64,000 bases of DNA from Catenuloplanes niger (GTDB lineage: Bacteria; Actinomycetota; Actinomycetes; Mycobacteriales; Micromonosporaceae), in contig NZ_JAVDYC010000001.1 in NCBI RefSeq assembly GCF_031458255.1, positions 9,038,501-9,102,500 on the forward strand. The letters run 5' to 3'. How positions within the stretch are numbered: the stretch's first letter is position 1; each line of letters begins with the position of its first letter. Positions 2,918-29,160 of this stretch are shown one piece after another. Both the position numbers and the translations under genes were made by a program. The notes under the pieces were generated by a model, which was given only the letters and a program-made list of their open reading frames with translations, had not been told where the DNA came from and ran no database searches.

Positions 2918-3044
2918 AGCCAGCCGCAGCACGGGTTCCAGATCGAGATCGGCCCGGCAGCGTCGGCGACGGTGCGGTACCTCGCGGCTGCGCCTGCGTC
3001 ACGTCACCGAGGTGAACGAGCGGCGCGCCGGCTGACCGGGTGGT

Positions 3045-3356
3045 TCAGCGCCGCAGGTCGACGCGGCGTCCCATGCCGAAGTCGGCGGCCCGGTCGTCGG
3101 TGACGTGGGCGAACACGCCGGCGGGCACGCCGTCGAGCGCGGCGACGCGGGCGGCGACGTCGAGCAGGCGGCCCTCGGCGGCACCGGCGATGAAGAAGAT
3201 GTAGACGCCGCCCCACTCCTCGCCGTCGTCGAACACCTCGATGACGCCCTGCTCGTCCAGCCCGTACAGGAAGTCCTCGATCTCATCGATCCACGGGTGC
3301 GGCTCACCCGAGGCGGTCGGCCGCAGGGGGACGTGGATCTCGACGTGACGTGCCAT
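3045..3356 (-). CDS. Conserved hypothetical protein, about 103 residues
   Basis: The frame shows strong third-position GC bias and a coherent mixed alpha/beta composition: an amphipathic start (RHVEIHVPL), an acidic central stretch (EVFDDGEEWGGVYIFF) and a C-terminal GMGRRVDL. An in-frame GTG lies two codons upstream at 3362; the ATG at 3356 is chosen. No family recognised. It is monocistronic between two convergent or independent units, with no clue to function. Confidence 0.65.
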   Translation of the reverse strand: MARHVEIHVPLRPTASGEPHPWIDEIEDFLYGLDEQGVIEVFDDGEEWGGVYIFFIAGAAEGRLLDVAARVAALDGVPAGVFAHVTDDRAADFGMGRRVDLRR

Positions 3357-3469
3357 GTCCACAGGATCTCAGGCGACCACGAACGACATCACCGGGGTAC
3401 GCCGGCCGGCGGTTCCCCGCACCGGGACCCTCGGCAGGGCGCCGCTGGATCCCGGTGCGCGCGGACGTT

Positions 3470-5083
3470 TCAGAGGAGCAGGTCCCGCCGGGCGTAGCGG
3501 ACCGTACCGGCGATGACCAGGCACGCCGCGACGGCCGTCATCGTGAGCGCGGCCGGCCACGCGGGTCCGGTGAGCGGAACGGGCGCGAGGTGGGCGAGCG
3601 GCGACACGTCCCGGACCCAGCCCGGTGCGCCGGTGGCGTCGGCGAGGACCTGGAGCAGGAAGCCGCCGACACCCGGCGCCACGCCGGCGAGCACCGCCAG
3701 GCGTGGCGTCACACCCACGGCCAGCACGGCGGCACCACAGCTGAGCGCGACGACCGGCAGCGTGTTGAGGGTCCCGGCCAGCGCGGCGGGCAGTGCCAGT
3801 CCGCCACCGACCGCGGTCACGCCGGCCCACGTCGCCGCCGCCGCGACGCAGAGCAGGATCAACGCGCCGCCGGCGGTGACGGCGACCTCGGCGGTGAGCA
3901 GCCGTGTCCTGGTCAGCGGCGCGGCGGCGAGCGAGGTCAGACGCCGGTCGGTCTCGGCCGCGGCGAACGCTCCCATCCGGACCGCGGTGAACGCCCCGAC
4001 CGGCAGGGCCAGCAGCGCGAAGAGGCTGGCGGTGAAGCCCTCCACGGTGTGCATGCCGGCGAAACCGGCCTGGGCCGCCGCGTCGGAGAACACGGTGTTG
4101 CCGGCCAGGAACTCGGTGACGGAACGTGCGGTCAGGCCGATGAGCAGGAAGTACGCCCCGATCCCGGCCGTCCAGGCGAGCACCGGCCCGATCGCGCGGC
4201 GCACGGCGAACGCACCCGGGCCGCCGAGCAGCCACCGCCGCGGTGCACGCCCGGCCACCGGCGTGGTCAGGCCGCCGCCGACGTCACGCCGGCCGGCCGC
4301 GACGACCGCGGCCGCGCCGGTGGCCAGCGCGGCGGCGAACAGGACCACCAGCGGCACCGGATCGTCGCGGCCGTACGGGGAGCTGAGGGCGAGCAGCCCG
4401 AACGGCGACAGCCAGTGCAGCGGACCGAGCGCGGCGATCCCGTCACCGATCATGCGCAGCAGCAGGCCGGCACCGAGCACGGCGATCACCGTGCCGCTCA
4501 CCGGGCTCCGGGCCGGGAGCGCCTGCGCGGCCAGCGCGGCGACCGCGATCGCGAACAACCCGGCGGAGGCGACCCCGGCGCCGTGCACGATCGCACCGGC
4601 GGGATCCGGTCCCGCGTTCCACAGCGCGGCCGTGACCGCCGCGCCGGAGGCGACCGGCACGGCCGCGAGCACGGCGAGGTGCCGGAGCAGCAGCCCGCGC
4701 CGCGTGACCCGGCCGGCCAGCAGCAGGTTCCAGCGGCCGGCGTCCTCCTCGCCGCGCAGGACGCGGGTGGTGGCCAGCGCGACCCAGACGGTGACGATGA
4801 CGGTCAGCACGGTGCCGACACGCCACACGGTGAACCCGCCGGCGTGGTCCAGCGCGACCGGCTCGCCGAACAGCGTGCGGATGGCCGGGTTCGCCGCGAT
4901 GTTCGCCAGCCCGGCCGCGGTGGCCGGATCGGCGGCGAGCCCGGCATAGGTGGCGGTGACCAGGGCCGGCATCCCGGCGGCCAGCAGCAGCACGATCGCA
5001 CCGCCCCGGCGGATCTGACGGGTGGCCAGCCCGGCGGCGGCCCGTCCCGGGCGTGCGGGGAGGGTGAGCGCGGGCGCGGTCAT
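3470..5083 (-). CDS. ABC-2 type exporter permease
   Basis: 537 residues with about twelve hydrophobic helices in two similar halves, each beginning with an Arg-rich cytosolic lead (RQIRRGG; FAVRRAIG), typical of the fused ABC-2 permeases of actinomycete antibiotic or lipid exporters. Its ATG overlaps the stop of the ATPase gene (ATGA), so the two are translationally coupled and form one transporter. The C-terminus is RYARRDLLL. The cargo is unknown. The upstream leader motif (6013-6031) would control both genes. Confidence 0.85.
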   Translation of the reverse strand: MTAPALTLPARPGRAAAGLATRQIRRGGAIVLLLAAGMPALVTATYAGLAADPATAAGLANIAANPAIRTLFGEPVALDHAGGFTVWRVGTVLTVIVTVWVALATTRVLRGEEDAGRWNLLLAGRVTRRGLLLRHLAVLAAVPVASGAAVTAALWNAGPDPAGAIVHGAGVASAGLFAIAVAALAAQALPARSPVSGTVIAVLGAGLLLRMIGDGIAALGPLHWLSPFGLLALSSPYGRDDPVPLVVLFAAALATGAAAVVAAGRRDVGGGLTTPVAGRAPRRWLLGGPGAFAVRRAIGPVLAWTAGIGAYFLLIGLTARSVTEFLAGNTVFSDAAAQAGFAGMHTVEGFTASLFALLALPVGAFTAVRMGAFAAAETDRRLTSLAAAPLTRTRLLTAEVAVTAGGALILLCVAAAATWAGVTAVGGGLALPAALAGTLNTLPVVALSCGAAVLAVGVTPRLAVLAGVAPGVGGFLLQVLADATGAPGWVRDVSPLAHLAPVPLTGPAWPAALTMTAVAACLVIAGTVRYARRDLLL

Positions 5084-5973
5084 CGTCCGTTCCCCGTGCC
5101 GTAGTAGTCGAGGAAGATCTCCTCGAGGCTGGGTTCGCGGACGGCGAGGGCGGTGACGTCGGCGGCGGCGAGCGCGCGCAGCGCGGGCGCGGGCGCGCCG
5201 GTCAGCGCGAACCGCAGCCGGCCGTCGCCCGCGGCCTCGACCCCGTCCACGCCGGGCACCGCGGCCAGCTCCGGCCGGGCGCCGCGGTAGGCGACGGTGA
5301 CCTCGGCGCGGTGCAGCGCCCGCAGTTGCGGCACGGAGGCGACCTCGGCGAGCCGGCCGGTGCGCAGGATGCCGACCCGGTCGCAGACGGCCTCGACCTC
5401 GGCGAGCTGGTGTGAGCTGAGGAAGACGGTCTGCCCACGCTCGCGGGCCTGGCCGACGGCGGCCCGGAACTGCTGTTCCATCAGCGGATCCAGGCCACTG
5501 GTCGGCTCGTCGAGCACGAGCAGCGGCGCGCGGGTGGCGAACGCGGCGATCAGGGCGACCTTCTGCCGGTTGCCGGTGGAGTAGGTGTGCGCCGGCCGCG
5601 ACACGTCCAGGTCGAACCGGTCGACGAGCTCGTCGCGGTAGGTGAGGTCGGTGCCGGGGCCGGTGCGGGCCAGCAGGTGCAGGATCTCCGCGCCGGTCAG
5701 TTGCGGCCACAGCGCGACGTCGGCCGGCACGTACGCCAGGTGCCGGTGCGCGCGGGCCACGTCGGCGGCGTCGATGCCGGCGATCCGCGCGGTGCCGGCG
5801 GTGGGACGGGCGAGGCCGAGGATCATGCGGATGGTGGTGGACTTCCCGGCACCGTTCGGGCCGAGGAAACCGAAGACCTCACCGGCGGCGACGTCGAGGG
5901 TCAGGTCGTCGACGGCGGTCAGCCGACCGTACCGTTTGGTGAGGTGGGAGGTGCGGAGCACGGGGTCGCTCAT
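5080..5973 (-). CDS. ABC exporter ATP-binding subunit
   Basis: 297 residues: Walker A GPNGAGKST at about 41-49, Q-loop region, signature YSTGNRQKV (a variant of LSGGQ seen in this exporter subfamily), Walker B LLVLDEP with D-loop SGLD, and H-loop SSH. A C-terminal regulatory part of about 80 residues follows, as in DrrA-type ATPases. The start is the ATG at 5973 after GGAAGGG; the longer open frame upstream (to 6045) runs through the conserved leader motif and is not needed. The downstream permease overlaps by 4 nt. Confidence 0.9.
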   Translation of the reverse strand: MSDPVLRTSHLTKRYGRLTAVDDLTLDVAAGEVFGFLGPNGAGKSTTIRMILGLARPTAGTARIAGIDAADVARAHRHLAYVPADVALWPQLTGAEILHLLARTGPGTDLTYRDELVDRFDLDVSRPAHTYSTGNRQKVALIAAFATRAPLLVLDEPTSGLDPLMEQQFRAAVGQARERGQTVFLSSHQLAEVEAVCDRVGILRTGRLAEVASVPQLRALHRAEVTVAYRGARPELAAVPGVDGVEAAGDGRLRFALTGAPAPALRALAAADVTALAVREPSLEEIFLDYYGTGNGR

Positions 5974-6159: not shown

Positions 6160-7422
6160 TCACCGGGCGAGCTCCTCCAGTGCGTCCGCGGCCGCCGCGA
6201 CGCCGTTCTCCGACCGGATCCGGGCACCGAGCAGCCGCGCGGCACCGGCCATGCCGGCGTCGTGCGCCGCCCGCCGGATCGCGGCGGCGAGCGCGGGCGC
6301 GTCCAGGCGGTGCTGGGCGACCGGTGGCGGGGCCACGCCGAGCCGGTGCATGCGCCGCCCCCAGAACGGCTGGTCGGCCACGAACGGGCAGATCACCTGC
6401 GGGCGGCCGGCCCGGGCCGCGGCCGCGGTGGTCCCGGCGCCGCCGTGGTGGACGATCACCGCGCACCGTCCGAACACCGCGTCGTGCGGCACGTCCCCGG
6501 AGACGAACGCGTGCCGATCCGAGGTGAACGACCGCAGCCCGCCCCAGCCACCGGCCACGATCCCGGGCAGTCCCGCCCGGTCGAGGGCGTCGAGCACGGT
6601 ATCGGTGGCCGCGCCCGGGTCCGGCCCGGCCATGCTGCCGAAGCCGACGAACACCGGCGGCTGCGGGCCGTCCAGCAGCGCGCGCACCCGAGCGTCCAGC
6701 CCGCCACCGGCCCCGGCGTCCCGGTCGGTGAACCAGTAGCCGGTGACCCGAGCCGTGGCGGGCCAGTCCGCCGGACGCGGCAGGACCGCCGGGCTGATCG
6801 CGTGCAGCACCGGCGCCGGCCCGCCGTCGGGTCGCCGCGCGGGGTCGTGCCGGCCCCGGCGGCGAGGCAGGCCGAGGCTGTCGCGCCACCGGTCGACGGT
6901 GCGGGCGAACACCAGCGCGGGCGCGCGCATCCCGGCGTAACTGGCCCGGTTGAGCCGGCCCGGCAGCCGGTCCGGCAGGTCCTGCCCGGGCCACGGGAAC
7001 TCGCGGGTGGGCACGTACATCGGCAGCGGCAGCGCCAGCACGGCGGGCACGCCGAGTTTCTCGGCCACGTGCTGGCCGGCGATCACCTGACCGTTGTGCA
7101 CGATCACGTCCGCGCCGTCCGACGCGACCCGCCAGCAGTCGCGGAGGACCTGACCGAACATCGCGGGCATGCGCCGCATGAGCGCGGCCTTCGCCCGGAT
7201 TCCACCGCCGGTGAGGAGACCGTCCGCGGAGCCGGCATCCAGCACCCGAAGCGGGCCGTCGTCGATCGGAGCGAACGTCACGGCGTGCGCGGCGGCCAGG
7301 TCGGCGAACCGCCGCGGTGCCGCGACCACCGCGTCATGGCCGCGTTGCCGCAGCTCACGGGCCAGTGCGAGGAACGGCTGCACGTCACCACGCGTGCCGA
7401 GGGTGAGGATGAGGACCCGCAT
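6160..7422 (-). CDS. GT1/MGT-type glycosyltransferase
   Basis: 420 residues, GT-B fold. The N-terminus MRVLILTLGTRGDVQPFLALA is the acceptor-domain start of antibiotic and sterol glycosyltransferases; the C-terminal donor domain has HHGGAGTTAAAARAGRPQVI followed by PFVADQPFWG, the nucleotide-sugar binding signature. Similar enzymes glycosylate macrolides, glycopeptide aglycones or lipids, some as self-resistance. Start: ATG at 7422 after GGAAGG. The open frame continues upstream through leader motif copy B in the same frame, so an N-terminally extended form (from 7482) cannot be excluded. Acceptor unknown. Confidence 0.88.
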   Translation of the reverse strand: MRVLILTLGTRGDVQPFLALARELRQRGHDAVVAAPRRFADLAAAHAVTFAPIDDGPLRVLDAGSADGLLTGGGIRAKAALMRRMPAMFGQVLRDCWRVASDGADVIVHNGQVIAGQHVAEKLGVPAVLALPLPMYVPTREFPWPGQDLPDRLPGRLNRASYAGMRAPALVFARTVDRWRDSLGLPRRRGRHDPARRPDGGPAPVLHAISPAVLPRPADWPATARVTGYWFTDRDAGAGGGLDARVRALLDGPQPPVFVGFGSMAGPDPGAATDTVLDALDRAGLPGIVAGGWGGLRSFTSDRHAFVSGDVPHDAVFGRCAVIVHHGGAGTTAAAARAGRPQVICPFVADQPFWGRRMHRLGVAPPPVAQHRLDAPALAAAIRRAAHDAGMAGAARLLGARIRSENGVAAAADALEELAR

Positions 7423-10379: not shown

Positions 10380-13300
10380 TCAGCGGTGACCGGTGGGTCC
10401 GGGAGCCGGCGCACCTCCCGGTGGGTCGGCGGCGTCACCCGGGTGGGCGACGAGCTGGTCCAGCAGGTGCAGCGGTGCGGGTCCGACGCCGGCGGCGACG
10501 AGGGCGTCCCAGTACGCGGTGGCCAGGCGCGCGTCGACCGGGCCGGACACCGCGGGCAGGTGAGGGCCGGCCGCGTGCAGCAGCGACTCCAGCTGACATG
10601 ACGCGACGCCGATCGCGGCGGGGCGGACGTCGGCCGGCAGGCCCGGGGCCGGCTCCCGCGTCGTGGCGCCGACGTCGAGCAGCCCGCCGCCGACGATCAG
10701 CACGTCCCGCTGCCGGCGCATCCGGGTGAGTGCCCGGGCGGTGTCGAAGCAGTGCGGGAAGGAGTCGTCGACCAGGACGGTGCCCGGCCGCAGCCGGTCC
10801 ACGTCGAGTGTGCGCGGCCCGCCGCTGGTCGCCGCCATGATCACGTCCGCGGCGTACACCGGATCGGGGCCGTCGGTGCGGATCTCGACGGGGCCGGGGT
10901 AGCCGTCCGCGCGCAGTGCCGCCGCCAGCGCGCCCAGCCGGCCGGCGGCGGCCGGAAGATCACACAGGACGAGTCCGGCCGGTGCCGTGCCGGCGCGGCT
11001 GAGCAGCAGCCGCAGCGAGGACTCCCCGATCGAGCCGACCCCCAGGACGGCCAGCACGCTGCCGGACAACGGCCGGCCCCGGTGCGCCACCGCGGCCAGC
11101 GTGGTGAGGACCACGGACGCGGCGGTCACGGCGTGCCCGGTGGTGATCCGGGCGGCGGAACGCACCAGCGGCGTGACGGCGGCGCCGTACCCGGTGCGGG
11201 CGGGGATCATCCCGGCCAGGGACACGCTGTGCGCCCCCAGGGAGGCGGCCAGGTCCACCGCCGCGGCGCTGTCCTCGGCCAGGCCCGGTGCGGTCAGCTC
11301 GTCGGCGAAGCGTGGCAGGCAGACGAACCCGGACCGGCCGAGCGCGGTCGTCACGGTCTCCAGCAGCCGGGGCCGGCCACCGGGGAACACGGCCGCCCGC
11401 AGCGACTCCCGGTCGAGGCCGGGCAGCGCCCGGCGTACCGCGTCCGGCGCCAGGGCCAGCAGGTCGGCCGGCGCCGGCAGGTAGCCGACCAGCGCCGCCT
11501 CGAGGTGCCGGGCCCCGGACCGCGGCCGTGGCGCGGCCGCCGGCCGCAACCGGGACTCGAGCGTGGCGGCCAGCCGGGCCAGCCGATCCGCGCCGGCCCG
11601 GCCGCGCAGGGTGCAGCGCAGCCGGCCGCCGGCCGGGCGCACCGCCAGCAGCACCTCGGTCCCGGGCGGGACGCCCAGGTCCGCGTCCTCGTCCACCCAG
11701 GACAGCCGCAGCGTCCGGCCGCTCGGCGTGCCGAGACCGTCGAAGTCCAGGTAGGTGAGGAAGAACCGCCAGCCGTGCGGGGCGGTGAACGTCCGCGTGC
11801 GCGCGTCGGCGACCTCGGCGGCGAGCCGGCCGAGGTCGTCCCCGGCGGAGTGCACGGCGACCGCGGTGGCGCACGGCCCGAAGATCCGCCCGAGATCCGG
11901 CAGGGCGTGGTCGCGCCCGGTCACCGCCACGCCGACGGTCGGGTCCGGCTCGCCCGTCTCCTCGGCCAGCGCCCGGTGGAACGCCGCCAGGACCGGCACG
12001 AACGGGGTCACCCCCGCGTGCGACGCGGCGGCCCGCAGCCGGGCCACCGCCTCCTCGTCCAGGGTGAAACCGGTGGTGACGAGCGGCCCGAAGGCCCCGT
12101 GGTCGTTGCGGACGGCGGCCGGGGTCAGCCCGTCGTGCAACGTCACGTAGTCGCGGAAGGTGGACGCCAGCGGCGGCAGCGCATGCCCGTCGTAGGCCGC
12201 CAGCAGCTCCCGGGTGAGCAGCGCCATGCTGTAGCCGTCGCCGATCAGGTGGTGGGCGTGCAGCATCAGCACGTGCTCCTCGGGACCGGTGCGCAGCAGC
12301 CGGATCCGCACCAGCGGCCAGTGCGCGGGATCGAACCGGTGCGCCCGTTCCGCGGCGACCTCGTCGTCGAGCGGGCCGGGCGTCGCGTCGTACCCGACGG
12401 TCAGGCGCGGGGTCCCGGTCAGCTCGTACTGCACCGGTGGGCGGGCATCCGGCCGGAACACCGTGCGGAGCATGGCATGCCGGGCGACCAGCTCGTCGAC
12501 CGCACGCTGGAACCGGTCGCGGTCGAGCGGGCCGTGCAGACGCGGGGTCGCCAGCCAGGTAACGGCCGCACCGGCCACGTCGGCCAGCAGGAAACCGCGC
12601 TGGGCGGGGCTGAGCGGAAAGTCCCCGCCGGCCGTGGGCGCCGGTGCCGGTCCCTGCTCCGCGGCGTCGATCGCGGCGGCGAGCGCGGCCACCGTACGGT
12701 GCCGGTAGATCACGGTCGGCCGGGGCAGCACCGGCCGGTGCGGTGCCAGGTCGGCGAACAGGTCCAGGGCGCCGATCGAGTCGCCGCCGAGCGCGAAGTA
12801 GTCGTCGTCGCGCCCCACCCGGGACACGCCGAGCCGCGCCGCCCAGACGCGGGCGACCAGCCGTTCCGTGTCGGTGCGCGGCTCCTCGTGCGGCGCGGGC
12901 ACGGAATCCGCGTCGCCGGTGGTGGTCAGCGCGGCCCGGTCCACCTTGCCGGTGGTGGTCAGCGGCAGCGAGCCGGTCACCTCGACGCGGGCCGGCACGA
13001 GGTACGGCGGCACCAGCCGCTCGAGGTGGGCGCGCAGCTCGGCGCCGGTCGGCGGGACCGCGCCACGCGCCCGCACCCAGGCCACCAGCCGGCCGCCGTC
13101 GAGTCGCACGACGGCACCGTCGACGCCCGGATGACCGCGCAGCACCGCCTCGACCTCGCCCGGCTCGATCCGGTGTCCGTGCAGCTTGATCTGGTCGTCG
13201 ACCCGGCCGCGGAACCACAACACGCCGAACCCGTCCCGCACGCCGCGGTCGCCGCTGCGGTACCAGCGCGTCCCGTCCCGGTCGAGGAAGGCCGCCGCGG

Positions 13301-16300
13301 TCTGCTCAGCGTCGTCGAGGTACCCGGCCGCCACGCCGAGGCCGCCGATGTAGATCTCCCCGACCTCGCCGGGCGGGCACACCGCGCCGTCCGGGCCGAG
13401 CACCTCGACGACCGCCCCGCCGACCGGCCGCCCGATCGGCAGCTGTACGGCGTCGTCGTCCGGCCGCTCGCGTACCACGTGGCAGGTCGCGTTGATCGTC
13501 GTCTCCGTCGGGCCGTACAGGTTCGCGACCGGCCGGCCCGGCCCGGCCAGGTCGAACCAGCGCCGTACGTGCGCGGCGGACAGTTCCTCCCCGCCGACAT
13601 GCACCCAGCGCAGCGACGTCAGATCGGGCCGCCGCGGCCGTTGCTCGGCCGCCCCGAGCAGCCGTTCCCACAGCGTGGGCACCGAGCTCCACACCGTGAT
13701 CCGGTCCCGTTCGACACGCGACAGCAGCAGGTCCGGGTCGCGGACCGTGTCGCGGTCCCAGGCCACCACGGTCGCGCCCACGAGCAGCGGCGCGAGCAGC
13801 TGGCGGACGGACGCGTCGAAGCAGATCGAGGCGGTCTGGGCCAGGCGGTCGCCGGCCCGGTAGCCGAACGTCGCGACGGCCCAGTCCAGGTAGTTCGTCA
13901 TCGCACGATGGCTGACCACGACGCCCTTCGGCCGGCCCGTCGACCCGGACGTGAAGATGACGTACGCGTCGTCGTCCGGCCCGGTGGTCACCGCCGGTGG
14001 TGCGGCGTCCACCCCGTCCGCGGTGCCGATCAGCGTGCACCCGGTCAGCACCGCGGCGTGCGCGTCGTCGTGGACGACGAGCCGGGCCCCGGCCCGCCGC
14101 AGCTGCCCGGTGAGCCGTGCCGGCGGGTGCGAGGCGTCCAACGGCACCCACGCCGCGCCCGCCTTGAGGATCGCCAGCAGGCCCACCACGGTCTGCGCCC
14201 CGGGACCGGTCAACAGGCCGATCCGCCGGTCCCCGTACGTGGCCAGCCGCGCGGCGAGCCGGTCGGAGGCGGCGTCGAGCTCCGCATAGGACAGTGGCAC
14301 GCCGTCGGTCAGCACCGCGGTCGCCGCCGGGGCGCGGCGGCACTGCTGCCGGATCCGCTCCGCCACGGCCGGCCCGGCGGCGGGCGCGGCCGGCTGGTCC
14401 TCGCCGAGCGACGCCAGGTGCTCGGCGGCGAGACGTGCGACGGTCCGCGCCTCGAACAGCGCCGCCGGATAGTTCCACGAGAAGTGCAGCGTGCCGTGCG
14501 CCTCGAAACACACCAGGCTCAGGCGCGTCGCGGCCGACGCGCTGCCGGCGACCGTGGCCACCGCGTCGCTTCCGCTCCCGCCGGCACCGGGGAAGCGGGC
14601 GAAGCTGAACGACGCCGGGCCGGCGGTCCGCGGGCCCGCGCCGCCGACGGCCAGCATCCCGGCCAGGTCCACAGTGGACACCGAGCCGTGTTGCTCGCTG
14701 CGCAGCCACGCGTCCCGCAGCCGGCCGGCGAGCTCGGCCACCGGCTCGCCGGGCCGCACCTCGGCCAGCACCGGCAGGGTGTCCGCGAACGGGCCCACGA
14801 TCCGGTCCACGCCCGGCAGCCGCGCCGTGCGGCCGGCCCGGGCCACCGCCACCGGCACCCGGGTCTGGCCGCTCCACCGGGACAGGCACCGGACGTAGCC
14901 GGCCAGCAGCAGATGGAACAGCGTGACCCCGGCGGCGCGCGCCTGCGCGGAGAGCCGCGCGGTGAGCTCGGCGCTCACCGACACCTGGTGCAGCGCGTAC
15001 GGCGGGACCGGCGCCGCCGCCGGATCCCCGTCGAAGGGCAGCCCCAGCCCGGGGTACGCCGCCAGCGTCGCCCGCCAGTAGGCGAGGTCGTCCGCGGACG
15101 GCTCCGCCCGGGCGGCCTCGTGCTCGGCGAACCCCGCGGCCGGTGGCGGCGGCAGCACCGCGCCCGCCGCGAGCGCGCCGAGCTCGTCGCCGAGGATCGC
15201 CAGGCTGTAACCGTCCGCGGCGGCGTGGTGCGCCACGATCAGCAGATGCGCCCGGTCCGGTCCGTCGACGGCGAGGACCGCCCGGACCGGTGCCTCCCGG
15301 GTCAGGTCGAAGGTGCGGTTGCGCAACGCGGACTCGACCGCCTCGAGCGGCGTGTCCAGTGTGGTCACGGTGAACCAGGCGGGTACGCCCTCGCCCGGAG
15401 CGGTGATGTGCTGCCCGTCCGGTCCGAGACGCATCCGCAGCATGGGATGCCGTCGCTCGAGCGCGGCCAGCGCGTGCCCGAACCGGTCCGGCTCCACCGG
15501 TCCGGTCAGCGTCCGCCGTACGTACGCGTAGGCGGGCACCCGCGGATGCAGCAGGCCGGTGGTGCGGAACGCGCGCTGCACCGGGCTGAGCGGGAACGCG
15601 GCGCCGCCGGCCAGGTGCCGGGCCAGCTCATCCAGCGTGCGGTGCTCGAATAACAGCGTGGTCGACAGCGTCCGCCCGAGCCGCGACTCCAGCTGCTTGA
15701 CCAGGTCGACCGCGGTCAGCGAGTCGAGGCCGAGAGCCAGGAACGGCTCGTCCGGCCCGATCGTCTCCGGGGCCCGGCCGAGCGGCTCGGCCAGCAGCTC
15801 CCGCACGATCGCCACCACCCGGTCGTGGTCGACCGGCGGCGCGCCGGCCACGCTCGTGGGCGTGGGCGTGGGCGTGGGCGTGGGTGCGGGGGCGGGCCGG
15901 TTCGCGGGCCCGGCGGCGGCGCGGCCGGTGGGCGGGGACGTGCCCACCAGCACCTGGGCGGCGCCCACACCCGCCGCGGCCCACAGGATCTCCGGGACCG
16001 CGTCGAGCGGCAGCCCGTCCTCGGCCCGGAGACGTCCGGCCGCGAGCCCGCCGTCCAGCGCGGGCAAATTGACCGCGACGAACCGGTCGCCCGCGGCCCG
16101 TGCGGCGGCGGCGAACGCGTCGAGGTAGGCGTTGCCCGCGGCGTAGTCACCGAGCGCGCCCGCCCGGCCGGGCAGGACGGACGACACCGACGACAGGGCG
16201 ACGATCAGCGGCCGCCGGTCGCGTACCGCCGCGGTGAGCACCTGAATCCCGCGCACCTTGGCCGCCAGCACGGCCGCCACGTCCGACCGCGTCTTCGCCC

Positions 16301-19300
16301 GCAGACTCCCCGGCCGCACGACGCCGGCCGCGTGCACCACCACGTCCAGCGCCCAGCCGTCGACCAGCGCGGCCACGTCCGCGGCGACCGACACGTCCGC
16401 GGTCCGGTACTCCACCGACGCGCCCAGGCCCCGCAGCTCGTCGAGCAGCGCGTCCGGGGCGGGGGACCGGCCGGCCAGCAGCAGACGGGGCCGGCCCCGG
16501 CGCGCCAGGTGCCGCGCGACGGCCGCCCCGGCCGCACCGGCACCGCCGACGATCAGGTAACTGCCGTCCGCGGGCGGATCCACCGGCCGTACGCCGGCGG
16601 CCGGGGTGAACGTGCGGATGAGACGCCGCCCGTCCCGCCAGGCGACGACCTCCACGGCCCCGGGCGCGGGTGGATCGCCGGCCTCCAGCTCCACGGCGGC
16701 GCGCCGCGCGTCGGCGCCGTCGGCCGAGCGGAGGTCGACGAGCCGTACGCCGAGCCGCTTCCGCTCGTCGGCCAGCGCCATGGCCAGCCCGGCCCAGACG
16801 GCCTGGGCCGGATCGGGCCGCTCGGTGCCGACGCCGGTGACGTGCACGTCCTCGGTGACGACGAGCAGGTGCCCGGCCTCCGGCGCGGCCGCCAGCGCCG
16901 GCAGCGCCTCGTCCGCGGCACCCGTGGCGCGCACGACCGTGACCACGCCGGCCGGTCGCCGGCCCGCCGGCGCGGGAGCGACCGCCCAGTGCGGCGTCGC
17001 GAGGACCGGCGCGGTGGCGTCCGACACCCAGAACCGGCGGCGCTGGAACGGGTACGTCGGCAGGTCCACGCGCGCGCTGCCCGCGTCCAGCAGCGACCGG
17101 TCCAGGGTGGCGCCGTGCTGCCACAGCTGTCCCGCGGTGGCCAGCAGCGTGGCCGCGCCGGTGCCGGCCGGACGCACGGACGCCGGGCGCAGCAGGGGCG
17201 CCAGTGCGGCGCTCGCGCCGATCTCGACGAAGGTGTCGTGGCCCGCCGCCCGGAGCCGGTCCACCGCCGTGGCGAACCGCACCGGCCGCACGGCGGCGGC
17301 GGCCAGGTAGGCGCCGTCGTAGTCCGCACCCCACTCGCCGGTGACCGTGCTGACCAGCGGGATCCGCGCCGGTGCGGCGTCCGGGTGCAGACCGGCGAGG
17401 CGGCCGGCCACCGCGCGCATGGCGGGGGAGTGGAACGCGTGCGACACCGCCAGCCGGCGCGCCGCGACGCCGCGCGCGGCGAGCAGTGCGAGCGCCCGGT
17501 CGAGGTCCGCCACCGGCCCGGCCAGCACGACGCGGCCGGCCGCGTTCTCGGCGGCGACCACGACCCGGTCGCCGAGCACGCCGGCCACCGCGTCGGCACC
17601 GGCCGCGACCGCAGCCATCGCGCCCGGCCCGGCCAGCGCGGCCGTCAGCCGGCCACGCTCGGCCGCCAGCCGTACCGCGTCGGCACCGGTGAGGATGCCG
17701 GCGGTGACCGCGGCCGCGAACTCACCGACGCTGTGGCCGGCCACCGCGTCCGGCGTGACGCCGTACGCGCGCAGCTGCGCCGCCTGCGCGACCGCGAAGG
17801 CGACCACCAGCGGCTGCGTGATCTCGGTGCGTGCCAGCTCCGCGGCGGGCACGGACGCGTCCGTGCACCACTGCACGAGGGTACGACCGGCGACCGGGCC
17901 GGCCGCGGCGGACAACTCGTCGAGCGTCTCCCGGAAGACGGGCGCCTCCGCGTAGAGCGCCGCGCCCTGACCCGGGCGCTGGGTCCCCTGGCCGCCGAAC
18001 AGGAACGCCACCCTCGGCGTCCTCGTCACCGAGGTCGACGGCGGCGCCCCGGCCAGCCGGCCGGCGAGGTCACCGTCGGCCACGATCGCCACGCGGTACG
18101 GCCCGTCGTCCCGGGCGGTCGAGGCGGTCGCGCACACGTCGGCCTCGTCCAGCTCCGGGTGCGCCCGCAGATGCGCGGCCAGCTCACCGGCGGCGGCACG
18201 CAGCGCGGCCTCCGAGCGGGCCGACAGCGTGAGCAGGTGCGGGCCGGCCGGCCGGGAACGGGGCACCGGCCGGTCCGGCGGCGCGGCGGCGAGGATCACG
18301 TGCGCGTTGGTGCCGCCGAACCCGAAACCGTTGACGCCGGCCACGGCCGGTCCGGTCCACGGCCGCCGCTTCGTGACCACCTCGAACCCGGCGCCGGCCA
18401 GGTCGAACCGGGGCGACGGGCGGTCGTGGTGCAGCGACGGCGGGACCTCGCGGTGCCGCAGCGACAGGATCACCTTGACCAGGCCCGGCAGCCCGGCCGA
18501 GTTGAGCAGGTGACCGACGTTCGTCTTGACCGAGCCGACCAGCCGCGGCCGGCCGTCCGGCAGCGGCGGGAAGGCGAACGCCAGCGAACGCGCCTCCGTC
18601 GAATCGCCGATCGCGGTGCCGGTGCCGTGCGCCTCCACATAGGACACGTCGGCCGGGTCCACCCCGCTGTCCCGGTACGCCGCGGCGATCACCTCCCGTT
18701 GCCGCAGCGGATTCGGCGCCATCAGGCTCAGCGACCGGCCGTCGTTGTTGACGGCCGTGCCCCGCACCACCGCCAGCACCCGGTCGCCCGGATCGTGCCC
18801 CCAGCGGGTCAGCACCAGGGCCGCGCCGCCCTCACCCGGCACGAAGCCGTCCGCGTCCGCGGCGAACGCCCGGCACCGGCCGGACGGGGACAGCGCGTGT
18901 GCCTCGCCGAGCAGCCGCTCACCGGTTTCCGTCAGGTTCAGGTTGACGCCGCCGACCACGGCCACGTCGCAGTCGCCCGCGGCCAGCGCGCGGCGGGCCG
19001 TGTGCAGGGCCACCAGCGCCGACGAGCACGCCGTGTCGATCGCGATCGCCGGGCCGCGCAGGTCGAGCAGGTGCGCCACGCGCGCGCCGGCGAGATTGCG
19101 CAGCGTGCCGGTCAGCGCGTGCGCGCCGGTCGCCCCGGACCGCTCGATCAGCGCCGGATAGCCGCTCTCCCCGACGGCCACGAAGACGCCGACCCGGTGG
19201 GCGTGCCGGCGCGGCCCGGCGTAACCGGCCCGTTCCAGGGCCTCGTGCGCCAGTTCGAGGAAGATCCGGGCGTGCGGGTCGAGCAGCCGCGCCTCGTCGT

Positions 19301-21470
19301 CGCCGATGCCGAAGAACCCGGCGTCGAACAGGGCCGGGTCGGCGAGGAAGGCGCCGGACCCGCCACCCGGCCGGCGCGCGTCGTCGGTGACGCTGTCGCG
19401 GCCGGCGACCAGGTTGTCCCAGAACCGCTCCGGGGTGTCCGCGTCCGGGAACCGGCAGGCCATCCCGACGACCGCGATGTCGTCGGGCCGCGGTGCGGCG
19501 GTGTCGTAGGGCCGCGCGGCGGCGGTGCCGTTCCGTTGGTCGGCGACGGTGTCGGCCGGCCGGGTGGTGGCGGGTGGCACGTGGGGGGCCGGGCGTGGCG
19601 GCTCGGGGCGGGACAGGCGGTCGGTCAGGTCGGTGACGGTGGCGCAGTCGCGCAACAGTGCCGGGTCCAGGGTGCGGCCGAGGGCGTCCTCGAGCAGCGC
19701 CAGCACCTCCATGGCCGCCACCGAGCTTCCGCCGATGGCCAGGAACCGGTCGTCCGGGCCGATCCGCTCCTCGGGCAGGCGCAGCACGTGGGCCCAGATC
19801 GCGCGCACCGTCCTCGCCAGGTCGCCGACCACGACCGGGACCGCAGCCGGGGCCCCGGCCTGCGCGGCCGGGATTTCGGGTCGCGCGGCACGGGTTCCGG
19901 TGTGCTCCGCCGGTGTCGGCTCGGTCTCCGGCCGCAGATCGAGGCGGTCCCGCAGTGCCTGCCGGCGCAGTTTGCCGCTGGTGGTGCGGGCGAACGTCCC
20001 GGACGGCACCACCCGCACCTCGACGGCGGCGTACCCGAGCGCCTCCGCGACCCGCGCCCGGACCCGCTCGGCGACCTCCGGCCGGTCCCGGACGGCCGGC
20101 GTGCTCAGGAAGACCACGACCCGTTCCCGCGTCCCGTCGGTGGTGCCGACCACGGCCAGCGGCCCGCTGCCCAGCCCGGGCGTCGCGGCCGCCACCTCCT
20201 CGAGGTCGGCCGCGTGGAAGGTGCGGCCGTGGACGAAGACCACGTCCTTGTGCCGGCCGGTGACACACAGCCGGCCGGCCCGGAGAAACCCGATGTCGCC
20301 GGTACGCAGCCAGCCGTCGACCAGCGTGGCGGCGGTCGCCTCCGGAGCCCGGTGGTAGCCGCGCGTGACGTTCGGCCCGCGCACCTGGACGTGCCCGACG
20401 ATGCTGTCGTCCACCGGCCGGTCCGCGTCGTCGACCACCCGGACCGTACAGCCGGGCACGGGATACCCGACGTCCATCAGCTCGGCCGCCGTGGCGTCGT
20501 CCGGGCCGGCCGGCAGCGCGACCCCGCGCGCGAGCGCCGCCCGGCTCAGCCGCACCGGTACGGCCAGTTCCCCGACCGGTGGGCAGGTCACCGCCACGGT
20601 CGCCTCGGCCAGGCCGTACACCGGTTGCAGGGCCTCCGGGCGCAGCCGGGCGCGGGCCGTACGCTCGGCGAACGTGCGCCACACCGCCGGGGAGATCGGC
20701 TCCGCCCCGACGATCATCAGGCGGACGCTGCTCAGGTCCAGGCCGTCGAGCACGTCCGGGCCCACCCGGCGGTTGGTGAGCGCGAGCGCGAAGTTCGCCG
20801 CGGACAGCACGGTCGCCCGGTGCCGTTCGGCGGTGCGCAGCCACACCGCCGGCCGCTTGGCGAAGGTCATCGGGTCGATCCGCACCTGCTTGCAGCGGCG
20901 GTGCAGCGGCACCAGGTGGGTGCCGATCAACCCCATGTCGTGGAAGTACGGCATCCACGTCAGCACGACGTCCTCGGCGCTCAGCGCGGCGGCCCGCGCG
21001 GCCTGCTCGAGGTTGGCCGCCACGTTGCCGTGGGTGAGCTCGACGCCCTTGGGCGTGCCGGTGCTGCCGGAGGAGAACTGCAGGAACGCCAGGTCGTCGT
21101 CGCGGACCGGGACGGGCGCGGACAGCGGCGCCGCGGCCGGCAGCGGTTCGCCACCGAGACGTGGCGGGTCGCCGAGCAGGGACGCGACCGCGGCGACGCG
21201 ACGGGGTTCCGGCGGCAGCGGCACGGGCACGACGCCGGCGAACACCGCGCCCCAGAACAGCGGCAGGAACTCGGCGTTGTCCTCGACGACCAGCAGCGCC
21301 GGGTCGCCCGGCCGCAGCCCACGCGCGCGCAGGCCACCGGCGACGGCCAGCGCCTCGCGGTAGAGCCCGGCACCGGTGGTGACCCGCTCGTCCCCGGCCC
21401 CGTCGGCGTGCACGATCACCTGGTCCGGCGCCTCGGTGGCGGCCAGTACCAGCACGTCGGTCAGCGTCAT
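10380..21470 (-). CDS. Hybrid FAAL-PKS-NRPS megasynthase with terminal acyl-ACP-reductase-like domain
   Basis: 3,696 residues. FAAL 1-513 (FSSGSTGTPKG, YFHDMGLIG, YGLAEA) activates a fatty acid; ACP 545-620 (Ser583); KS 663-1065 (Cys815, His948, His987 present); AT 1153-1430 (GHSVGE, Ser1247; HAFH at 1344-1347, the malonyl-CoA type); KR 1510-1845 (Ser1763, Tyr1776, Asn1780; cofactor loop GGAGAAG atypical); ACP 1882-1955 (Ser1917); C 1958-2357 (HHAAADG); A 2366-2850 (pocket read by eye as D-A-R-S-V-V-L-I-N-K, no confident substrate); T 2865-2940 (Ser2898); C 2950-3312 (HHLIGDG). Residues 3320-3680 resemble cyanobacterial acyl-ACP reductase (TTGHAVTA, GVGSIGES, LVDDSFPHCFD, Cys3625 in CQLES). 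No thioesterase. Predicted product: N-(3-hydroxyacyl) amino acid derivative, possibly released reductively. Start ATG after AAGG. Confidence 0.93.
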   Translation of the reverse strand: MTLTDVLVLAATEAPDQVIVHADGAGDERVTTGAGLYREALAVAGGLRARGLRPGDPALLVVEDNAEFLPLFWGAVFAGVVPVPLPPEPRRVAAVASLLGDPPRLGGEPLPAAAPLSAPVPVRDDDLAFLQFSSGSTGTPKGVELTHGNVAANLEQAARAAALSAEDVVLTWMPYFHDMGLIGTHLVPLHRRCKQVRIDPMTFAKRPAVWLRTAERHRATVLSAANFALALTNRRVGPDVLDGLDLSSVRLMIVGAEPISPAVWRTFAERTARARLRPEALQPVYGLAEATVAVTCPPVGELAVPVRLSRAALARGVALPAGPDDATAAELMDVGYPVPGCTVRVVDDADRPVDDSIVGHVQVRGPNVTRGYHRAPEATAATLVDGWLRTGDIGFLRAGRLCVTGRHKDVVFVHGRTFHAADLEEVAAATPGLGSGPLAVVGTTDGTRERVVVFLSTPAVRDRPEVAERVRARVAEALGYAAVEVRVVPSGTFARTTSGKLRRQALRDRLDLRPETEPTPAEHTGTRAARPEIPAAQAGAPAAVPVVVGDLARTVRAIWAHVLRLPEERIGPDDRFLAIGGSSVAAMEVLALLEDALGRTLDPALLRDCATVTDLTDRLSRPEPPRPAPHVPPATTRPADTVADQRNGTAAARPYDTAAPRPDDIAVVGMACRFPDADTPERFWDNLVAGRDSVTDDARRPGGGSGAFLADPALFDAGFFGIGDDEARLLDPHARIFLELAHEALERAGYAGPRRHAHRVGVFVAVGESGYPALIERSGATGAHALTGTLRNLAGARVAHLLDLRGPAIAIDTACSSALVALHTARRALAAGDCDVAVVGGVNLNLTETGERLLGEAHALSPSGRCRAFAADADGFVPGEGGAALVLTRWGHDPGDRVLAVVRGTAVNNDGRSLSLMAPNPLRQREVIAAAYRDSGVDPADVSYVEAHGTGTAIGDSTEARSLAFAFPPLPDGRPRLVGSVKTNVGHLLNSAGLPGLVKVILSLRHREVPPSLHHDRPSPRFDLAGAGFEVVTKRRPWTGPAVAGVNGFGFGGTNAHVILAAAPPDRPVPRSRPAGPHLLTLSARSEAALRAAAGELAAHLRAHPELDEADVCATASTARDDGPYRVAIVADGDLAGRLAGAPPSTSVTRTPRVAFLFGGQGTQRPGQGAALYAEAPVFRETLDELSAAAGPVAGRTLVQWCTDASVPAAELARTEITQPLVVAFAVAQAAQLRAYGVTPDAVAGHSVGEFAAAVTAGILTGADAVRLAAERGRLTAALAGPGAMAAVAAGADAVAGVLGDRVVVAAENAAGRVVLAGPVADLDRALALLAARGVAARRLAVSHAFHSPAMRAVAGRLAGLHPDAAPARIPLVSTVTGEWGADYDGAYLAAAAVRPVRFATAVDRLRAAGHDTFVEIGASAALAPLLRPASVRPAGTGAATLLATAGQLWQHGATLDRSLLDAGSARVDLPTYPFQRRRFWVSDATAPVLATPHWAVAPAPAGRRPAGVVTVVRATGAADEALPALAAAPEAGHLLVVTEDVHVTGVGTERPDPAQAVWAGLAMALADERKRLGVRLVDLRSADGADARRAAVELEAGDPPAPGAVEVVAWRDGRRLIRTFTPAAGVRPVDPPADGSYLIVGGAGAAGAAVARHLARRGRPRLLLAGRSPAPDALLDELRGLGASVEYRTADVSVAADVAALVDGWALDVVVHAAGVVRPGSLRAKTRSDVAAVLAAKVRGIQVLTAAVRDRRPLIVALSSVSSVLPGRAGALGDYAAGNAYLDAFAAAARAAGDRFVAVNLPALDGGLAAGRLRAEDGLPLDAVPEILWAAAGVGAAQVLVGTSPPTGRAAAGPANRPAPAPTPTPTPTPTSVAGAPPVDHDRVVAIVRELLAEPLGRAPETIGPDEPFLALGLDSLTAVDLVKQLESRLGRTLSTTLLFEHRTLDELARHLAGGAAFPLSPVQRAFRTTGLLHPRVPAYAYVRRTLTGPVEPDRFGHALAALERRHPMLRMRLGPDGQHITAPGEGVPAWFTVTTLDTPLEAVESALRNRTFDLTREAPVRAVLAVDGPDRAHLLIVAHHAAADGYSLAILGDELGALAAGAVLPPPPAAGFAEHEAARAEPSADDLAYWRATLAAYPGLGLPFDGDPAAAPVPPYALHQVSVSAELTARLSAQARAAGVTLFHLLLAGYVRCLSRWSGQTRVPVAVARAGRTARLPGVDRIVGPFADTLPVLAEVRPGEPVAELAGRLRDAWLRSEQHGSVSTVDLAGMLAVGGAGPRTAGPASFSFARFPGAGGSGSDAVATVAGSASAATRLSLVCFEAHGTLHFSWNYPAALFEARTVARLAAEHLASLGEDQPAAPAAGPAVAERIRQQCRRAPAATAVLTDGVPLSYAELDAASDRLAARLATYGDRRIGLLTGPGAQTVVGLLAILKAGAAWVPLDASHPPARLTGQLRRAGARLVVHDDAHAAVLTGCTLIGTADGVDAAPPAVTTGPDDDAYVIFTSGSTGRPKGVVVSHRAMTNYLDWAVATFGYRAGDRLAQTASICFDASVRQLLAPLLVGATVVAWDRDTVRDPDLLLSRVERDRITVWSSVPTLWERLLGAAEQRPRRPDLTSLRWVHVGGEELSAAHVRRWFDLAGPGRPVANLYGPTETTINATCHVVRERPDDDAVQLPIGRPVGGAVVEVLGPDGAVCPPGEVGEIYIGGLGVAAGYLDDAEQTAAAFLDRDGTRWYRSGDRGVRDGFGVLWFRGRVDDQIKLHGHRIEPGEVEAVLRGHPGVDGAVVRLDGGRLVAWVRARGAVPPTGAELRAHLERLVPPYLVPARVEVTGSLPLTTTGKVDRAALTTTGDADSVPAPHEEPRTDTERLVARVWAARLGVSRVGRDDDYFALGGDSIGALDLFADLAPHRPVLPRPTVIYRHRTVAALAAAIDAAEQGPAPAPTAGGDFPLSPAQRGFLLADVAGAAVTWLATPRLHGPLDRDRFQRAVDELVARHAMLRTVFRPDARPPVQYELTGTPRLTVGYDATPGPLDDEVAAERAHRFDPAHWPLVRIRLLRTGPEEHVLMLHAHHLIGDGYSMALLTRELLAAYDGHALPPLASTFRDYVTLHDGLTPAAVRNDHGAFGPLVTTGFTLDEEAVARLRAAASHAGVTPFVPVLAAFHRALAEETGEPDPTVGVAVTGRDHALPDLGRIFGPCATAVAVHSAGDDLGRLAAEVADARTRTFTAPHGWRFFLTYLDFDGLGTPSGRTLRLSWVDEDADLGVPPGTEVLLAVRPAGGRLRCTLRGRAGADRLARLAATLESRLRPAAAPRPRSGARHLEAALVGYLPAPADLLALAPDAVRRALPGLDRESLRAAVFPGGRPRLLETVTTALGRSGFVCLPRFADELTAPGLAEDSAAAVDLAASLGAHSVSLAGMIPARTGYGAAVTPLVRSAARITTGHAVTAASVVLTTLAAVAHRGRPLSGSVLAVLGVGSIGESSLRLLLSRAGTAPAGLVLCDLPAAAGRLGALAAALRADGYPGPVEIRTDGPDPVYAADVIMAATSGGPRTLDVDRLRPGTVLVDDSFPHCFDTARALTRMRRQRDVLIVGGGLLDVGATTREPAPGLPADVRPAAIGVASCQLESLLHAAGPHLPAVSGPVDARLATAYWDALVAAGVGPAPLHLLDQLVAHPGDAADPPGGAPAPGPTGHR

Positions 21471-21765: not shown

Positions 21766-22083
21766 TCAGTCCTCGGCGTGCGGCCAGCCGATCACGCGCT
21801 CGGCGGTGACGCCCCGGAGCGTGGCGCCCTCCCAGTGGGCGCCGGTGACGTCGGTGCGGCCGTACTGCGGATCGTGGGTTCGCACGTAACCGAACCTGGC
21901 GTAGGACAGGTCCGTGTCCCGCAGGTCGCCGTCCCGCAGGTCGCAGCCGGCGAACCCGGCCCCGCGCAGGGACGCGCCCCGCAGATCCGCGCCGCGGAAG
22001 TCGCAGAACATGAAGTGGTGGCCGTCCAGCGTCCGGTGGCGCAGATCCTGGCCGGCACAGGAGCGCCGGGACACGAGATTCAC
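21766..22083 (-). CDS. Pentapeptide-repeat protein
   Basis: 105 residues. From about residue 12 to 65 the sequence follows the A(D/N)LXX pentapeptide pattern (DLRHRTLDGHHFMFCDFRGADLRGASLRGAGFAGCDLRDGDLRDTDL), which folds as a right-handed quadrilateral beta helix. GTG start after GGGGC. Some pentapeptide proteins protect DNA gyrase from inhibitors (Qnr, MfpA); this one is shorter than MfpA (about 180 residues), so that role is not supported. It lies upstream of the megasynthase on the same strand, separated by 295 nt. Confidence 0.8.
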   Translation of the reverse strand: MNLVSRRSCAGQDLRHRTLDGHHFMFCDFRGADLRGASLRGAGFAGCDLRDGDLRDTDLSYARFGYVRTHDPQYGRTDVTGAHWEGATLRGVTAERVIGWPHAED

Positions 22084-22144
22084 TGCCCCACCGTACGGTC
22101 CGGGGCGGGCCGGGCGGAACGCGATTATCCCGGCCCGCCCCCGC

Positions 22145-22639
22145 TCAGGGTTCCAGCGGGCGCCGGGAACCGGAATCGAGCGCCTCCCGCGCCCGCGCGA
22201 TGCCGGCGCGGATCATCGATCCGTAGTCGTCGTCGGGCAGTGCCGCCAGGTCGGTGGCCGCCGCCGACAGGTGGACGCGCGCCTCGGCCGGTTCGCCCGC
22301 ACGCCGGTACGCGTCGGCGAGGTTCAGGTGCAGCGACGGCAGGAACGCCCGCACCCGGAGGGAGTCGTGGAAGTGGCGCGCACGCTCGTCGTCGAGGTCC
22401 GTCACCGCGGCGAGCGCCCGCCGGTCCCACGTCAGCTCGTCCGCGACGGTGTCCTGGAGGTCGGCGAGGTAGTGCGCGATGCTGCACCGGTGCAGCGCGT
22501 CACCGTGCTCGCCGACGGCGTCCCACAGCCGGGTGAGGGACTCCCTCGCCCCGGCCCGGTCGCCGGACCGGCCCCGCTCGACGGCGGCGCCGATGGCCGC
22601 CATGACGTCGTCCGACGCGATGCTCGTCGATTCTGACAC
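22145..22639 (-). CDS. TPR-like helical repeat protein
   Basis: 164 residues, almost wholly alpha-helical, with two tetratricopeptide-like units (LHRCSIAHYLADLQ... and SLHLNLADAYRRAGEPAEARVHLSAA). GTG start at 22639 after GGAGGACC. Such small TPR proteins occur widely in actinomycetes, without known function. The stop lies 61 nt before the pentapeptide gene, so the two may be co-transcribed. Confidence 0.7.
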   Translation of the reverse strand: MSESTSIASDDVMAAIGAAVERGRSGDRAGARESLTRLWDAVGEHGDALHRCSIAHYLADLQDTVADELTWDRRALAAVTDLDDERARHFHDSLRVRAFLPSLHLNLADAYRRAGEPAEARVHLSAAATDLAALPDDDYGSMIRAGIARAREALDSGSRRPLEP

Positions 22640-22820
22640 CGTGGTCCTCCCCGCTGTGTGCCGGCGCGCCGTGCCGGGCCGGCCCCGCGAAACAGGCTGG
22701 TGCCTCGACCCGGTCGAGGGTCAAGACCGGCCGGTACCCCGCGTCGGCGCGGGCGGACAGCGGCGGTGCCACCGTCCGGCGGCACGACGATCGACGGTCC
22801 GGTGCGGCGGTCGCCCGTGC

Positions 22821-23056
22821 GAGCCGGGCGACCCGAAGTCCACCGCCCCGGCCGTCATCGCCGCCGGTGACCCGCCGTCGGCGGTCGCCGCCACCGGTTT
22901 CACCACCGCCCACGTGTCCGCGGTCTGGCGTGCGCTGCTGGCCGCGCCGCTGATCAGCGCCGCGCCGCAGACGGCCGGCGGGTCACCACGGCGACCGCCG
23001 CGGTGGCGGTCGCCGGCGGTGTGCCGGCCGGGGCGATGCTGACGCCGGTCGGCTGA
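22821..23056 (+). pseudogene. Possible frameshifted gene fragment
   Basis: One frame reads AVIAAGDPPSAVAATGFTTA and continues to about 22975 (HVSAVWRALLAAPLISAAPQ); a second frame then continues in similar alanine/valine-rich style (RVTTATAAVAVAGGVPAGAM) to a TGA at 23054. Joining the two needs a single 1-nt shift. No start codon or ribosome-binding site is evident and the family is not recognisable, so this could also be chance in high-GC DNA. Confidence 0.25.
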
Positions 23057-23080
23057 CGCCGGTCGGCTGACGCCGGTCGG
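23040..23080. repeat. 14-bp tandem repeat, three units
   Basis: TGACGCCGGTCGGC occurs at 23040-23053 and 23054-23067, with 13 of its 14 bases at 23068-23080. It directly abuts the stop codon of the DUF4132 gene and multiplies the stop codon of the presumed fragment on the other strand. Confidence 0.8.
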
Positions 23081-25489: not shown

Positions 25490-25491
25490 CG

Positions 25492-29118: not shown

Positions 29119-29160
29119 CTGGGATCTCCTCCAGGAGGTGGATGTGCTCCGGAAGCTAGC

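Follow-up and report, generated by a model that had tools for sequence, protein, structure and literature searches.

We conclude that the megasynthase encoded in the window (by which we mean the whole 64,000-nt stretch of Catenuloplanes niger DNA) almost certainly ends in a domain of the TAD clade, TAD being a name that we take to stand for terminal amidation domain. The domain has the fold of cyanobacterial fatty acyl-ACP reductase (AAR), yet AAR is not its nearest family, as TADs are nearer by sequence, by fold and in trees. Judged on sequence, it is a putative terminal amidation domain, related to AAR, which would bind NAD(H) and use a catalytic cysteine; "TAD" denotes here a clade of domains and not an identical arrangement. 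A terminal NRPS domain with the AAR fold is already represented among solved structures, namely those of the carmabin TAD. Rankin et al. (Structure 2025, "Structure of a putative terminal amidation domain in natural product biosynthesis") reportedly survey TADs across phyla and liken the TAD structure to AAR.

The megasynthase (3,696 aa, positions 10380..21470, on the minus strand like all of its parts given below) is an intact ORF with an ATG start. Its 15 Pfam matches (AMP-binding, PP-binding in three stretches, ketosynthase, acyltransferase, KR and condensation), together with motifs, give the domain order FAAL-ACP-KS-AT-KR-ACP-C1-A-PCP-C2, followed by a terminal domain of ~350 aa. The fatty acyl-AMP ligase (FAAL) domain (residues 1-515, 19926..21470; Pfam AMP-binding) has NCBIfam fatty acyl-AMP ligase models among its top matches, all under their curated cut-offs. 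It is followed by ACP 1 (residues ~552-618, 19617..19817; Pfam PP-binding, placed by motif) and by a PKS module consisting of a ketosynthase with an intact TACSS motif (residues ~660-1126, 18093..19493; Pfam and motif), an acyltransferase (residues ~1150-1450, 17121..18023; Pfam) with an HAFH motif, which we take to mean malonyl, a ketoreductase (residues ~1630-1830, 15981..16583; Pfam) and ACP 2 (residues ~1888-1955, 15606..15809; Pfam PP-binding). The NRPS part comprises condensation domain C1 with intact HHxxxDG (residues ~1957-2350, 14421..15602; Pfam and motif), an adenylation domain (residues ~2365-2845, 12936..14378; Pfam and motif), a PCP (residues ~2858-2925, 12696..12899; Pfam and motif) and a second condensation domain, C2 (residues ~2928-3300, 11571..12689; Pfam, motif and model), again with intact HHxxxDG and with neither an A domain nor a PCP after it. 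No thioesterase family is present among the 15 Pfam matches, and Pfam reveals no transaminase domain in the megasynthase.

The ten-residue code of the adenylation domain, read at positions that we presume to correspond to GrsA numbering, is DARSHGLINK. It is almost constant between genera: 67 of 79 aligned rows carry the same code, seven have DARSHGLVNK, one has DARSQGLINK and four are partly unreadable. We know of no code with which DARSHGLINK could be confidently equated; as a guess, the positive residue at position 239 might suit an acidic side chain.

The terminal domain itself (residues ~3325-3675, 10446..11498) is defined by sequence, fold and tree, while the last 397 residues of the protein have no Pfam match at E≤1. 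A preliminary description of this DNA had pointed to an AAR-like pattern in about 360 residues after the last condensation domain, and the AAR fold of this ~350-aa domain bears that out. All of the motifs quoted there are present within residues 3320-3696 (11513..10380): SLAGMIPARTGYG, ITTGHAVTAAS, VLAVLGVGSIGES, LVDDSFPHCFD, VGGGLLDVG and Cys3625 in ASCQLES. An AlphaFold2 model of the isolated domain (residues 3310-3696) has a mean pLDDT of 90.8 and a pTM of 0.89.

Comparison with solved structures places the carmabin TAD first by every route. In a search of PDB sequences with a 48-row profile, the carmabin TAD entries 9e4s/9e4x (whose sequence entries are titled "Amino acid adenylation domain protein") were matched at E 1e-61, PigE at 5e-10 and AAR at 1e-4, and with the window domain as a single query 9e4x/9e4s were again the best solved relatives (E 7e-33). 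VIA-align of the model gave Z 44.1-44.9 (rmsd 2.1-2.6, 343-351 residues aligned) for the "TAD from Carmabin Biosynthetic Pathway" and Z 28.9-29.8 (rmsd 3.1-3.9, 307-317 aligned) for AAR; the remaining rows, phenylalanine, leucine and glutamate dehydrogenases and others, stayed at Z ≤14.0. Foldseek likewise ranks TAD first and AAR second (best E 2e-30 vs 2e-14). Structure prediction thus recovers the AAR fold that had been proposed, but with TAD on top, and the better-matching family has the same catalytic Cys.

Among NCBIfam models at E≤5, the window domain matches only those for PigE (29.6 bits, against a model cut-off of 850 bits) and SbnB, with no SDR-type R-domain model among them. It has no match at E≤5 to TIGR04058, the AAR model (curated cut-off 449.7 bits), and the two weak matches to this model that its own genome does contain lie elsewhere. 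At E≤0.01, 20 of 48 family members match TIGR04058 (best 9.5e-7) and all 48 match the PigE model. SDR-type R domains have a different fold and are not known to use a catalytic Cys; they share with the window domain the position at the end of an NRPS or PKS assembly line, but no such Pfam match is seen in it at E≤1. The earlier view that this is not an ordinary SDR-type R domain therefore stands, as neither Pfam nor NCBIfam returned a model of that kind.

The catalytic cysteine can be followed through TAD, AAR and PigE. In the profile alignment Cys3625 falls on the Cys of NIMGCAFS in 9e4s, which, from the alignment and from arithmetic on residue numbers, would be about residue 2238, and Cys3625 would then occupy the position of the Cys2238 named in the PDB titles of the TAD entries (a Cys2238-dephosphocoenzyme A disulfide, beside NAD and NADH complexes). 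Alignment of a stand-alone bridging protein to AAR residues 34-335 places the AAR Cys in FACFAEAM, where 6jzz (titled AAR-C294S) has Ser in the alignment; Cys294 of AAR has been equated with Cys296 of PigE (PMC8341465). In a joint alignment of 38 rows, the Cys3625 column is Cys in AAR, PigE, the carmabin TAD and all 16 stand-alone AAR-like rows, and in four divergent TADs it is Cys in three and Ser in one (L121). The suggestion that Cys3625 sits where AAR is acylated is thereby upheld: it aligns with Cys294 as well as with the PigE and TAD cysteines, in 79 of 79 family rows.

Other positions separate the two sides. His3446, Asp3504, Asp3569 and Ser3570 occur in 15/15 family rows of the joint alignment, in 4/4 divergent actinobacterial TADs and in 9e4s, and are absent from AAR, from PigE and from all 16 stand-alone AAR-like rows. 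They belong to the TTGH motif at 3443-3446 (11133..11144; TTGN in AAR and TSGN in PigE), to the end of beta-2 (Asp3504, 10959..10961), where AAR has TARNQER, and to DDSFPHCF at 3568-3575 (10746..10769), whose DDS is common to all TAD-side rows of the joint alignment and whose PHCF is not strict (His3573 and Cys3574 in 72/79 family rows). The glycine loop GVGSIG lies at 3477-3482 (11025..11042; motif and alignment). The pattern is reversed at Cys+3 (Cys3625-x-x-Glu3628, 10587..10598): Glu is found in 79/79 family rows, in AAR, in PigE and in 16/16 stand-alone AAR-like rows, while 9e4s has Ser and the four divergent TADs have Ser or Ala. Given TAD-type H3446/D3504/D3569/S3570 and an AAR/PigE-type Glu3628, we would describe the domain as belonging to the TAD clade but carrying a single AAR-like character in its active site. 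Within the family (79 rows, comprising the window and 78 of the 80 loci described below, after removal of the short or broken L063 and L069 and of L001, which is the window itself), Cys3625, Glu3628 and His3668 (10467..10469) are invariant and Asp3504 is kept in 78 rows.

In a tree of 38 rows, the carmabin TAD, the divergent actinobacterial TADs and the window family are split from AAR, PigE and the stand-alone proteins with support of 100/100, and a second tree of 26 rows (without PigE and with 5 of the 16 stand-alone rows) gives the same TAD/AAR split, again at 100/100; for both, the tool issued warnings about long branches and about deviating composition in many rows. The other TADs form a group apart from the window family, with support of 99/100 in one tree and 94/86 in the other; the window family itself comes together in 56% of the first tree's 200 bootstrap replicates. 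We are unsure of the branching order that the sequences suggest inside the TAD side, and the position of the window family as a more distant branch within the TADs is less firm than its membership. The L118 domain, at E 9e-57 to 9e4x vs 7e-33 for the window domain, is closer to the carmabin TAD.

Set against known systems, the window domain shares with the carmabin TAD (9e4s, 9e4u, 9e4x, 9e50, 9e56) the AAR-related fold over its whole length, the Rossmann loop with Asp at the end of beta-2, TTGH, DDSxPHCF and the catalytic Cys. It differs in the presence of C2 between PCP and TAD, in Glu rather than Ser at Cys+3, in its host enzyme (an actinobacterial FAAL-PKS-NRPS) and in having an identity of 26-27%. 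The terminal domains of VatR and HcaD are probably also close known systems, going by their descriptions. The final domain of HcaD (83.5% identity to its VatR counterpart) is assumed to release the chain by terminal amidation, and dragonamides, carmabin A and vatiamides E and F are given as terminal amides; the same source describes the enzymology of domain-driven terminal amidation as unstudied and ammonolysis as a hypothesis (PMC10949194). Cyanobacterial AAR (6jzq, 6jzu, 6jzy, 6jzz) resembles the window domain in fold, in the position of the acylated Cys and in Cys-x-x-Glu; unlike it, AAR has TTGN, no Asp at the end of beta-2 and no DDS, lies on the opposite side of the tree, and is described as working with ADO and using NADPH to reduce an acyl-C294 intermediate in a ping-pong scheme (PMC7089970). 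PigE and TamH have an AAR-type domain with a conserved Cys that acts on a natural-product thioester (the Glu is also present in PigE), but they are fused to a PLP-dependent (class III) transaminase and not to an NRPS, and the PigE match is far weaker; both are described as thioester reducers (PMC8341465, PMC9594044), and the AAR-type domain of TamH as NADH-dependent (PMC9594044). With these reductase-transaminase fusions and a TAD as terminal NRPS domain on record, the claim of an undescribed mode of release has to be given up. The proposed AAR identity survives in part: fold, Cys and Cys-x-x-Glu are as in AAR and PigE, but TAD is the nearer family. A narrow literature search found no paper on this actinobacterial megasynthase. 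Lyngbyapeptin B was considered as a parallel and set aside as unrelated, its terminal thiazole being described as the product of a nonheme diiron enzyme (PMC10127204).

The same fusion recurs in other actinomycetes. A tblastn search confirmed 137 stretches in other genomes, so the terminal-domain pattern is not a chance one; the best 80 loci were kept, and in 78 of them the best segment is 48-74% identical to the window. Couchioplanes and Actinoplanes are the closest named relatives among the matches listed, which also include Micromonospora, Streptomyces, Nonomuraea, Microtetraspora, Kineococcus, Ornithinimicrobium and Nocardioidaceae MAGs as hosts. All eleven domains were found in order in 48/80 loci and in two more all except a detected AT; the other loci mostly appear to be cut by the 10-kb flank or by a contig end. 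The domains of the window's megasynthase served as queries for reading the order in relatives, so inserted domains of other kinds would not show. The tail A-PCP-C2-AAR is present in 77 of these best 80 of 137 loci, the exceptions being L063 and L073, on short contigs, and L069, in pieces over several frames. L069 (Streptomyces sp. NBRC 110035) is a shortened or broken copy with FAAL-ACP-KS-C1-A-AAR spread over several frames, and may be an assembly artefact.

In its own genome (one 9.74-Mb contig) the domain profile has one match at E≤1e-15, and 3/5 genomes of the genus, the window's own included, have the domain. In the same family it was detected in 55/354 genomes at E≤1e-30; four of these are divergent kinds (E 2e-52 to 7e-65) and 51 are window-type by domain score (E 3e-76 or better), full domain order having been checked in L107, L110 and L122 (the last without a detected AT) beside the window, and the other family genomes being judged by score and frame length. 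In-frame TGA occurs in six same-family rows, and in the three examined it is the natural stop. A sample of the phylum gave 20/396 genomes, four with megasynthase-sized proteins (the window's own included) and 16 with small AAR-like proteins; the latter (L090-L105, in small Actinobacteriota genomes) are stand-alone proteins of 359-384 aa with Cys-x-x-Glu in 16/16. A divergent-TAD profile found 11/394 genomes in a sample of the class, the window's own included, one match being a 402-aa frame. In one relative (genome G459, locus L138) a long repeat-like insertion separates the T(T/S)GH helix of the TAD from the glycine loop.

C2 predicts well when modelled alone (pLDDT 88.6) and has a complete C-domain fold. 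In structural comparison it comes closest to AmbE-CmodAA (Z 34.2), with a heterocyclization domain practically level at 33.9 and the other listed C domains at Z 29.8-33.0, while PvdL and bacitracin synthase chains come first in a profile search. HHxxxDG is kept in 78/79 C2 rows and in 77/79 C1 rows, three of the C1 rows looking as if drawn from C2. Neither in the window nor in 77/80 loci does the TAD directly follow a carrier domain, C2 being placed between them. In L118 (C-A-PCP-TAD) and L121 (KS-AT-KR-ACP-C-A-carrier-TAD) the TAD directly follows a carrier, and in L119 and L120 divergent TAD-clade domains stand alone (all four in genomes of the same family), which makes C2 before the TAD a peculiarity of the window family among those seen. 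The domain in L121 (5444-6919, minus strand) has Ser replacing the catalytic Cys and possibly is inactive or works by a different mechanism.

We lean, by a little, towards a reading in which the chain moves to Cys3625 and is released as a primary amide with NAD bound. FAAL would load a fatty acid, the PKS module would add two carbons and reduce the beta-keto group, and C1 would join the beta-hydroxyacyl chain to one amino acid on the PCP; C2 would then act once more on the PCP-bound chain, the TAD would take the chain off the carrier protein onto Cys3625, and attack by ammonia would release it as a lipid-aminoacyl primary amide. We infer NAD rather than NADP, acylation of Cys3625 and an amide as the product. 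Amide release is now likelier than aldehyde release because the nearest family is TAD and because carmabin A and related peptides end in amides. Several points speak against it: the Glu at Cys+3 is kept as in AAR and PigE, where other TADs have Ser or Ala; C2 stands between PCP and TAD, unlike in L118 and L121 and unlike HcaD and VatR as described in PMC10949194; and the window domain lies further from the carmabin TAD than that of L118 does.

The release of an aldehyde or alcohol, which the preliminary description proposed, gives way as the best reading before a carmabin TAD as nearest solved relative and a TAD-type TTGH, beta-2 Asp, DDS and tree position. We now hold it to be rather unlikely that NAD(P)H reduces acyl-Cys3625 in the manner of AAR, yielding an N-acyl-amino aldehyde or alcohol. 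Such chemistry would suit the shared fold and Cys, the Cys-x-x-Glu found in AAR (C294), PigE and the 16/16 stand-alone rows, the matches of family members to TIGR04058 (20/48) and to the PigE model (48/48), and the descriptions of PigE and TamH as thioester reducers, TamH with NADH (PMC8341465, PMC9594044). It is opposed by the clade and by Asp3504, TTGH and DDS, all TAD-type, by the lack of a TIGR04058 match at E≤5 in the window domain and by the lack of an ADO or transaminase among 20 neighbours scanned. We nevertheless keep this reading in view because of Glu3628, because TamH uses NADH, which leaves reduction compatible with an NAD(H)-type site, and because TAD amidation is itself deduced from the products of such pathways. 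It seems still less probable to us that C2 is the true release or finishing catalyst, by condensation with a free amine or a second aminoacyl unit or by tailoring of the PCP-bound residue (for which AmbE-CmodAA, a dehydrating domain, is a model), with the TAD acting after or beside it. The complete fold of C2, its HHxxxDG, the constancy of the A-PCP-C2-AAR order and the structural ranking of AmbE-CmodAA would all agree with such a role, but other C domains score only slightly lower, no subtype is singled out, and the kept active-site residues of the TAD would be left unexplained.

A reading of the terminal domain as an NAD-binding cap that is vestigial or has a purely structural role, with release by hydrolysis, is very improbable. 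A TAD-clade relative, L121, has indeed lost the Cys, but a vestigial domain should drift, whereas Cys, Glu and His are invariant and Asp nearly so in 79 rows that include 78 loci at 48-74% identity; nor is there a thioesterase family among the megasynthase's Pfam matches. As a bolder proposal, which we regard as unlikely though somewhat less so than release by C2, PCP-C2-TAD could form a distinct offloading cassette in which C2 and a Cys-x-x-Glu TAD act in sequence, one gene giving a family of lipid-aminoacyl amides; C2 might, for instance, carry out a second condensation or modify a residue, after which NAD-assisted, amide-forming release would follow via Cys3625. The active site, being intermediate, might combine thioester reduction with re-oxidation of a hemiaminal.

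No recurrent partner genes were found beside the megasynthase. Of the 21 other ORFs called in 1-33310, 20 were examined with Pfam, and no transaminase, ADO or amidotransferase family was found among them. Pfam identifies an ABC exporter (3470-5973), a glycosyltransferase (6160-7422), a ketopantoate-reductase-like protein (26048-26923) and an MMPL transporter (26920-29202), as well as a STAS-domain protein, a DUF998 protein, a pentapeptide-repeat protein, a DUF4132/DUF7737 protein and regulators. Just upstream of the megasynthase and on the same strand, 21766-25863 holds genes for pentapeptide-repeat, TPR-like and DUF4132/DUF7737 proteins and a small unassigned ORF; no link between these and the megasynthase was found. 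Among the best-scoring 40 clusters of downstream ORFs, the widest is represented in 12 of the 78 sets compared (77 loci plus the window), and none of the window's downstream ORFs has relatives in three or more of them. When 48 window genes were compared with 8-20 kb flanks in four genomes (two of the same genus), four matches passed E≤1e-10, an alpha/beta hydrolase with 68% and three others with 31-36%. As no conserved neighbour was found around the relatives, the megasynthase probably needs no clustered partners to make its product.

With the fold and cofactor site of a TAD and the Cys-x-x-Glu of AAR, the window family is a natural intermediate between the aldehyde-making AAR and the TADs, in a field where terminal amide formation by such an NRPS domain was called unstudied in 2024 (PMC10949194), and its C-TAD order can be separated experimentally. 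The host enzyme is encoded by a single gene, with a near-constant A code and no conserved neighbours found, present in Actinoplanes, Micromonospora, Streptomyces and others, which makes a product family in intensively screened bacteria testable through expression of one gene. If the cassette proposal were true, these bacteria would hold an unrecognised family of lipid-aminoacyl amides made from one conserved actinobacterial gene.
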